From NCBI GenBank assembly GCA_029641185.1, contig JAPWGK010000003.1, forward strand, positions 1,984,001-2,048,000: DNA of 64,000 nt, read 5' to 3'. The notes beneath the pieces were generated by a model. The model was given only the letters and a program-made list of their open reading frames with translations. It ran no database searches and was not told the origin of the DNA. Made by a program: the position numbers and the translations under genes. This document shows, piece by piece, positions 49,219-49,698 of this stretch. Source of the DNA: Pseudofabraea citricarpa. Lineage: Eukaryota; Ascomycota; Leotiomycetes; Helotiales; Dermateaceae. Each line of letters begins with the position of its first letter. Positions within the stretch are counted from its first letter, which is position 1.

Positions 49219-49560
49219 TAATAATAAAAATATTCGAGGAAAGCAAGGTGATTAAGAACCTTGCGTGTTAGAAAACACTATGACATCTAAGTGAGCTTGA
49301 TCGAAATGACTCCTAGATAAATTCCGTCTGACAGTTCAATAGCTCTCACTTTGATATATACACTCCTTACAATTTTATTCGTATTCGAACAGTCTCGCTC
49401 TCGTGAATTCTTTTCTTTTTAGCACGATGGTCAAAAAGTGGATTCGTATCAAATCGAAACTACAATCAACGTTTCATGCCTTCTTTGATATCTATTATCT
49501 TAAGCTGATAATCTCCAACAAAAAGCGTTTGTGGTTTAGTGGTAAAATCCATCGTTGCCA

Positions 49561-49586
49561 GTATATCTTCACCAGAATACACAGTC
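49561..49586 (+). other. Canonical tRNA intron, 26 nt
   Basis: Located directly 3' of the base after the GCC anticodon, the position recognised by the tRNA splicing endonuclease. Its exact 3' edge is fixed by the anticodon stem pairing to within a base or two. Confidence 0.8.
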
Positions 49587-49601
49587 TCGATGGGCCCCGG
49601 G

Positions 49602-49652
49602 GTACGTTTAGTCTCAATCCTTCCGCTAGAATAACTACTAATATAAATACAG
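49602..49652 (+). other. Spliceosomal-type intron inside a tRNA T arm, 51 nt
   Basis: Begins GTACGT, contains CTACTAAT at 49635-49642 ten bases before the end, and ends TACAG. Removing it exactly restores a perfect T stem and a standard T loop. Size, donor, branch site and acceptor match the mRNA introns elsewhere in this window. It is not at a position used by tRNA introns in fungi. Confidence 0.75.
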
Positions 49653-49692
49653 TTCGATTCCCGGCGAACGCAAGCTCAGTCATTCAATCAAA

Positions 49693-49698
49693 TTTTTT
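49693..49698 (+). terminator. Pol III oligo-T terminator
   Basis: Six Ts on the sense strand 20 bp after the tRNA 3' end. Confidence 0.7.

Follow-up and report, generated by a model that had tools for sequence, protein, structure and literature searches.

Spliceosomal-type introns in nuclear tRNA genes of a fungal genome

A tRNA-Gly(GCC) gene interrupted in its T arm

Can a nuclear tRNA gene carry an intron of the type found in mRNAs in addition to its ordinary anticodon-loop intron? The question is raised by a tRNA-Gly(GCC) gene on the plus strand (positions 49525–49672) of the window, the whole 64,000-nucleotide stretch of DNA analyzed here, which corresponds to C23:1984001-2048000 in the searched genome of 43,985,132 bases and 43 contigs. 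This gene (Gly C23) has both a canonical tRNA intron and a spliceosomal-type insert in its T arm. Exon 1 (49525–49560), placed by ARAGORN on the spliced form and the same in the seven paralogues found, holds nucleotides 1–37 with the 5′ strand of the acceptor stem, the D arm, the GCC anticodon, and an A box, TGGTTTAGTGG, at 49532–49542. It is followed, after nucleotide 37, by a canonical intron of 26 nt (49561–49586, ARAGORN). Exon 2 (49587–49601; sequence and ARAGORN) runs up to nucleotide 53 with the anticodon 3′ strand, the variable loop, and the T stem 5′ strand, and exon 3 (49653–49672, ARAGORN) supplies nucleotides 54–73, that is, the T loop, the 3′ strands of the T and acceptor stems, and the discriminator A. 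At site 53/54 lies the 51-nt spliceosomal-type intron (49602–49652), with the 5′ splice site GTACGT (49602–49607; the same donor occurs in one CCT chaperonin intron), the branch site TACTAAT (49636–49642, branch A at 49641, 11 bases before the intron end), and a terminal ACAG. The AG of the 3′ splice site overlaps the B box of the unspliced gene, AGTTCGATTCC, at 49651–49661 (both boxes are assigned by the general box consensus). A CAACA start-site-like element lies 9 bases upstream of the tRNA (49516–49520), and a T6 Pol III terminator lies 21 bases past the gene end (49693–49698).

The initial annotation had proposed that removal of 49561–49586 and 49602–49652 leaves a 71-nt tRNA, and both the sequence and ARAGORN bear this out: the spliced exons total 71 nt and form an acceptor stem with one G-T pair, and ARAGORN calls a 71-base tRNA-Gly(gcc) with a 26-nt intron once 49602–49652 has been removed. 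When both inserts were left in, or when the 26-nt intron alone was removed, ARAGORN did not find this gene, and Rfam at gathering thresholds returned no match anywhere in the window. Its further claims, that the 51-nt insert carries mRNA-like signals (GTACGT at its start, a motif ten bases from its end, and a terminal TACAG) and that it splits the B box at 53/54, yet rebuilds all but one base of it ahead of the T6 run, also agree with our inspection and, for the splice signals, with the matrix scores and shuffles described below.

A genome search with the mature sequence found seven tRNA-Gly(GCC) genes, in all of which the three exon blocks are identical (71/71 bases) and a canonical intron of 19–27 nt is present at 37/38. 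The genes on C43, C7, and C1 have the canonical intron alone; the remaining four (C23, C15, and two in tandem on C39) carry an additional insert of 51, 50, 53, and 53 nt, respectively, located exactly at 53/54, so that the exon boundaries at this site are given by four filled and three empty copies. These inserts have diverged from one another (34–38 identical of 45–50 aligned columns), and each keeps GTANGT, a CTAAY whose branch A is followed by 10–11 bases, and the terminal AG. They match only themselves and nothing else in the genome, which rules out a dispersed, non-intronic repeat, the finding that the initial annotation had said would overturn the intron reading. At the level of sequence, its reading of an mRNA-type intron in a tRNA gene is supported by the signals, the empty sites, and the recurrence of the insert; its picture of a lone case did not hold, as at least six such genes are present in this genome.

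The three empty-site Gly copies share a downstream flank (alignment z 35–44) and therefore look like one lineage. Comparisons of 150-base flanks between filled copies, which covered all pairs except that on C39, gave no match at z >4, the filled C15 gene showed a weak upstream-flank match to the empty C43 gene (z 4.3), and the first 12 bases of the canonical intron are the same in filled C23 and empty C7. The identity of the Gly exons could partly reflect gene conversion. In the tandem pair (C39:547845-548165, L083), the first gene (C39a) has no T-run before the second (C39b) and the next T5 is found 184 bases on, so the pair is probably one dicistronic unit. Such a Pol III unit would probably hold four introns of two kinds.

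Split tRNA-Thr(TGT) and tRNA-Lys(TTT) genes

A tRNA-Thr(TGT) gene of 205 bases, which came from one pattern-match locus (L025:1339-1543, or C5:833009-833213 by our own arithmetic), contains two spliceosomal-type introns, one of 50 nt at 26/27 (GTTAGT..CTAAT..CAG) and one of 53 nt at 45/46 (GTAATT..CTAAC..CAG), along with a canonical intron of 30 nt. ARAGORN reads the gene as a 72-base tRNA-Thr(tgt) once all three are taken out. When the canonical intron is kept and the other two are removed, ARAGORN places the canonical intron differently and calls tRNA-Stop(tta), because the anticodon depends on this placement; the unspliced gene is named Gln(ctg). The exon boundaries of this gene come from the ARAGORN cloverleaf alone, no empty-site copy having been found. 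A genome search with the spliced form (7/7 first-look candidates scored) matched no second Thr(TGT) copy, only the 3′ exon of the gene itself; this single-copy status derives from one search, in which an intact copy should show and a second split copy could escape.

A splice-aware scan revealed a split tRNA-Lys(TTT) gene of 198 bases on C2 (L018:1347-1544), with a 54-nt intron at 9/10, an 18-nt canonical intron, and a 52-nt intron at 46/47. ARAGORN calls tRNA-Lys(ttt) when both spliceosomal-type introns are taken out; with one of them out, the scan typed the gene Ile(gat). A search with the predicted 74-base product found an identical sequence (74/74) in C41:413037-413127, a copy that has a single 17-nt canonical intron and neither spliceosomal-type intron, and this match provides an independent check of the exon boundaries.

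The splice-aware ARAGORN scan covered 330 kb of examined DNA, which is not a random sample since many loci were picked for tRNA-like patterns. It gave 14 matches among 1259 single-intron candidates, all in the six split genes, a number that counts overlapping loci twice and includes alternative donors with other type names (Thr also appears as Val and Ser). Controls gave 0/1334 matches on reversed DNA and 0/1482, 0/1412, and 0/1421 on shuffled DNA. A second scan, which looked for acceptor and T stems together with an A box and a T-run, returned 22 entries including the Thr and Lys genes, compared with 0 on reversed DNA. A search for the T-arm insert pattern listed 88 rows versus 153 in the backward control, so the insert pattern itself is not enriched; among 74 distinct sites in the examined DNA, a 5-bp T stem beside the GT was found in the four Gly genes alone, and the other pattern matches among these sites were rejected as T-arm split genes. 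The bare intron motif had 13 matches in the window, against 7 in reversed and a mean of 8.7 in shuffled DNA, which is little above chance. The bare motif by itself is weak evidence; what makes the case for the tRNA introns is their exact position, the existence of empty sites, and their recurrence.

In their unspliced form, Gly C23, C15, and C39b as well as the split Lys gene escape ARAGORN; of the split Gly genes it finds only C39a as Gly(gcc), with a wrong 60-nt intron. Because split genes are missed or misnamed in this way, fungal tRNA counts may be too low. An Rfam tRNA search (63 of 1716 candidates scored) gave at least 62 rows, of which 15 fall on C36, a contig taken as mitochondrial; in 40 of the 47 nuclear rows, inspected by eye, inserts were located in the anticodon loop alone. 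Two concatenated tRNA queries are insensitive for a census. Since the census is incomplete, the true numbers of split genes, isoacceptors, sites, and introns are at least six, three, five, and eight, respectively. Two further candidates were rejected: a tRNA-Ile gene at C41:434066 had by eye the canonical intron alone, and at C3:1287755 the 181 bases inspected contained no more of a tRNA-Arg than its 3′ half. Pattern scans of viral and prokaryotic contig collections gave 0 and 0 matches, which says little for fungi.

Splice signals, Pol III signals, and competing explanations

As a reference we used 10 mRNA introns from the CCT chaperonin genes of the same genome, picked by eye on reading frame and protein continuity from one to several candidates each. 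These introns are 47–55 nt long and have CTRAY with 10–15 bases after the branch A. The eight tRNA introns are like them in length (50–54 nt), 5′ site, branch site, and branch-to-AG distance: each has a U2-type 5′ splice site (GTANGT in the four Gly genes; GTTAGT, GTAATT, GTAAGT, and GTAAGC in Thr and Lys), and each has a CTAAY branch site (8/8) with 10–13 bases after the branch A and a terminal AG. Their removal leaves an intact product, as judged from the empty-site paralogues for Gly, the 74/74 match to C41 for Lys, and the ARAGORN cloverleaf alone for Thr.

In a splice-signal matrix built from the 10 introns, four of which came from candidates pre-filtered for GTR and a branch-like motif so that the matrix leans toward these features, scores were 15.0–17.9 for Gly, 16.0 and 18.3 for Thr, 18.6 and 17.9 for Lys, and 17.9–20.0 for the U6 introns described below, compared with 17.1–22.9 for the training introns. 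The numbers of whole shuffles reaching the score, out of 200,000 each, were 0, 1, 4, and 1 for Gly (0 for C23), 2 and 0 for Thr, and 1 and 0 for Lys; when GT and AG were kept in place, they were 271, 365, 1072, and 1747 for Gly (271 for C23), 879 and 124 for Thr, and 112 and 205 for Lys, again out of 200,000 each.

The branch sites differ in one base from those of the sampled mRNA introns. ACTAAY is present in 10/11 introns of Pol III genes (Gly, Thr, Lys, and U6) versus 1/10 CCT mRNA introns (Fisher p 3.5e-4 in this small sample), 9/10 of the latter having GCTRAY; among motif-only candidates from elsewhere, with the Thr and Lys loci counted in, A precedes CTAAY in 13/39. Tentatively, stronger U2 pairing is possibly needed on uncapped transcripts.

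The split genes also retain Pol III signals. Each has the mature sequence, A and B boxes, and a T-run, except that C39a lacks a T-run of its own; runs of 6–7 T follow Gly C23, C15, and C39b, Thr, and Lys C2. CAACA has a role in Pol III initiation. It precedes every split gene except C39b and also many ordinary tRNA genes of this genome. Its offset is that of C23 in Gly C15 and C39a and a different one in Thr, Lys C2, and the empty-site Gly genes on C43 and C7; it is absent upstream of Gly C1, C39b, and Lys C41. At Gly 53/54, the spliced B box GGTTCGATTCC reads AGTTCGATTCC in the DNA, and at Lys 9/10 the spliced A box TGGCACAATTGG reads AGGCACAATTGG, a difference of one base in each case, because these introns end in AG. 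The introns at 26/27, 45/46, and 46/47 sit between the A and B boxes and leave both untouched. Since the boxes, by the general consensus, are nearly intact at all five sites, Pol III initiation could survive every one of these insertions, and the way 3′ splice sites overlap the A and B boxes points to a simple rule governing the places in which such introns can survive.

Based on these features, we consider it very likely that the split genes are functional Pol III tRNA genes with true U2-type GT-AG spliceosomal introns plus the anticodon-loop intron. The explanation that survives best beside this one, at what we regard as a very low probability, is that they are tRNA pseudogenes with insertions and that the cell relies on intron-free copies. 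Three Gly(GCC) copies and one Lys(TTT) copy without these introns would fit such an explanation, and an insert in one of many synonymous copies is usually read as a sign of a pseudogene (PMC4090602). The initial annotation, too, had taken many intact copies, if combined with a lack of junction reads, as a sign of a dead pseudogene; three intron-free Gly copies do exist, but four of the seven are split, with all 71/71 exon bases kept while flanks and the remainder of the inserts diverged. Splice signals are kept in all eight introns, the split Lys exons are identical to those of the intact copy, and no other Thr(TGT) copy was found. The decayed exons of a pseudogene are thus not seen in the Gly genes (identical in 7/7 found) or in the split Lys gene, and sameness of exons with kept splice signals amid diverged inserts, as far as sequence comparison goes, would be unlike a dead copy. 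The three Gly copies and one Lys copy lacking the inserts need no spliceosome, so the split Gly and Lys copies could be dispensable.

It is less probable still that the tRNA splicing endonuclease cuts out the T-arm, D-arm, and variable-loop inserts in the manner of non-canonical, archaeal-like introns. Archaeal introns are known at 53/54 and 45/46, and non-canonical introns also occur in red-alga nuclear tRNAs (PMC4090602), but all eight inserts keep GT, CTAAY, and AG spaced as in mRNA introns. In a simple ungapped pairing test, 0/8 inserts formed the 4-bp central helix that a bulge-helix-bulge has between its two 3-nt bulges at the splice sites (best 2–3 of 4 pairs); the test separates weakly, as the seven canonical Gly introns score 3–4 pairs; by this test the inserts were rejected as bulge-helix-bulge introns. 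Equally improbable is that the genes are read by Pol II within longer non-coding transcripts on which the spliceosome acts, for although a cap and CTD would presumably then be supplied, the A and B boxes are kept and both the T-runs and CAACA accompany 5/6 split genes.

If the split genes are Pol III genes with spliceosomal introns, as we favor, Pol III would transcribe each whole gene from its internal A and B boxes, and the nuclear spliceosome would take out the 50–54-nt introns by the branch-site route, presumably before end processing and cutting by the tRNA endonuclease. A complete cloverleaf could then form, from which the tRNA endonuclease and ligase would remove the 37/38 intron. In folds of the four unspliced Gly precursors, T-stem pair probabilities were ≤0.11 and the 5′ site was 0.39–0.72 unpaired. 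As the T stem barely pairs, the full cloverleaf needs the T-arm intron out first, and, with the 5′ site only partly open, splicing must work on misfolded RNA. Cap and CTD, which help splicing, are missing from Pol III transcripts.

U6 and the relation to known introns

The sole clear U6 match in the genome (C2:955536 region, L108:1444-1710) scored 33.2 bits, below the gathering score because the gene is split; a second match had 18.6 bits (E 0.8). Three introns, 55, 50, and 52 nt long and marked by GTAAGY, TACTAAY, and AG, interrupt the gene, and the second of them appears as a 50-base insert in the Rfam alignment. Removal of all three gives a continuous ...ACAGAGAAGATTAGCATGGCCCC...GGATGACACGC..., which we take to be the U6 core. 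One Pol III transcript of this organism thus seems to undergo splicing already. Two of the three introns lie in or beside the ACAGAGA and GGATGAC core. Intron 1 contains, by eye and by the general consensus, a B-box-like (AGTTCGGTTCC) and an A-box-like (TGGCGCAACTGG) stretch that might be promoter parts. No such intron was found in the 40/40 5S genes listed (47 of 1980 candidates scored) or in the one SRP RNA match of 268 nt, and RNase P RNA, which has no GTR..CTRAY..AG candidate of 40–90 nt, looks intact.

An intron in the U6 snRNA of fission yeast was reportedly described by Tani and Ohshima in 1989, judging by the title, and Canzler et al. are said to have found in 2016 multiple gains of spliceosomal introns in fungal U6 snRNA genes (both cited in PMC5832005). 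The introns of U6 set a precedent for Pol III genes that contain spliceosomal introns. They are the same as those described here in being mRNA-type introns in a Pol III small RNA; the host here differs in being a tRNA with its own tRNA-type intron and with promoter boxes inside the mature sequence. Fungal U3 snoRNA genes, as presented in the part of PMC5832005 devoted to them, have spliceosomal GT-AG introns with branch sites in some paralogues and not in others, a likeness to the present genes, but U3 is not a tRNA. Canonical eukaryotic 37/38 introns are present in these split genes; unlike the new introns, which are located at other sites, they are cut by the endonuclease and have no GT-AG or branch site. 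The non-canonical introns of archaea, Cyanidioschyzon, and nucleomorphs also lie outside 37/38, with several per gene and, in archaea, positions 53/54 and 45/46, but, in the accounts given in portions of PMC4090602 and PMC3978253, they are bulge-helix-bulge introns or inserts of 3–24 nt, whereas spliceosomal signals mark the ones here, none of which passed the pairing test. Eukaryotic non-canonical tRNA introns are treated as rare, algal, or pseudogene cases in the corresponding part of PMC4090602, and a 2026 review classes tRNA splicing as spliceosome-independent in its passage on the subject (PMC13149111). Among the literature matches listed, from which subscription papers were mostly outside so that an earlier report is possible, none described a nuclear tRNA with a spliceosomal intron.

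The nearest protein relatives of this genome are Phlyctema vagabunda (Helotiales, Dermateaceae; 92% for COX15) and, for a transcription factor (67%), a Pseudogymnoascus, a genus that we take to belong to the Leotiomycetes. It is probable, in our judgment, that this fungal lineage has repeatedly acquired spliceosomal introns in its tRNA genes (five sites across three isoacceptors to date); that at least one tRNA, Thr(UGU), is encoded only by a two-intron gene, making translation depend on the spliceosome directly as well as through mRNAs; and that the sites are set by keeping the A and B boxes. Since tRNA finders easily pass over split tRNA genes, such introns may be widespread among fungi yet unnoticed. 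If this is true, the rule of spliceosome-independent tRNA splicing is broken, and the spliceosome is at work on uncapped Pol III pre-tRNAs; maturation of the split tRNAs would apparently take the spliceosome as well as the usual tRNA-splicing enzymes. The exon-identical paralogue pairs with filled and empty sites are natural material for tests of intron gain and loss.

Other tRNA genes of this genome have features of their own. Six tRNA-Lys(CTT) genes (L069, L070, L072-L075) have long, variable canonical introns, with matched lengths of 114–137 nt, and a tRNA-Cys(GCA)-like gene on the minus strand (C2:1185751-1185896, L078) has at the canonical position an insert of ∼74 nt that holds, by eye, a tRNA-like stretch. 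A set of tRNA-Arg genes (three TCG and one ACG) is present twice in inverted orientation, at C12:2624-3940 and C12:113956-115272, ∼112 kb apart, possibly reflecting a large inverted duplication near the contig end.
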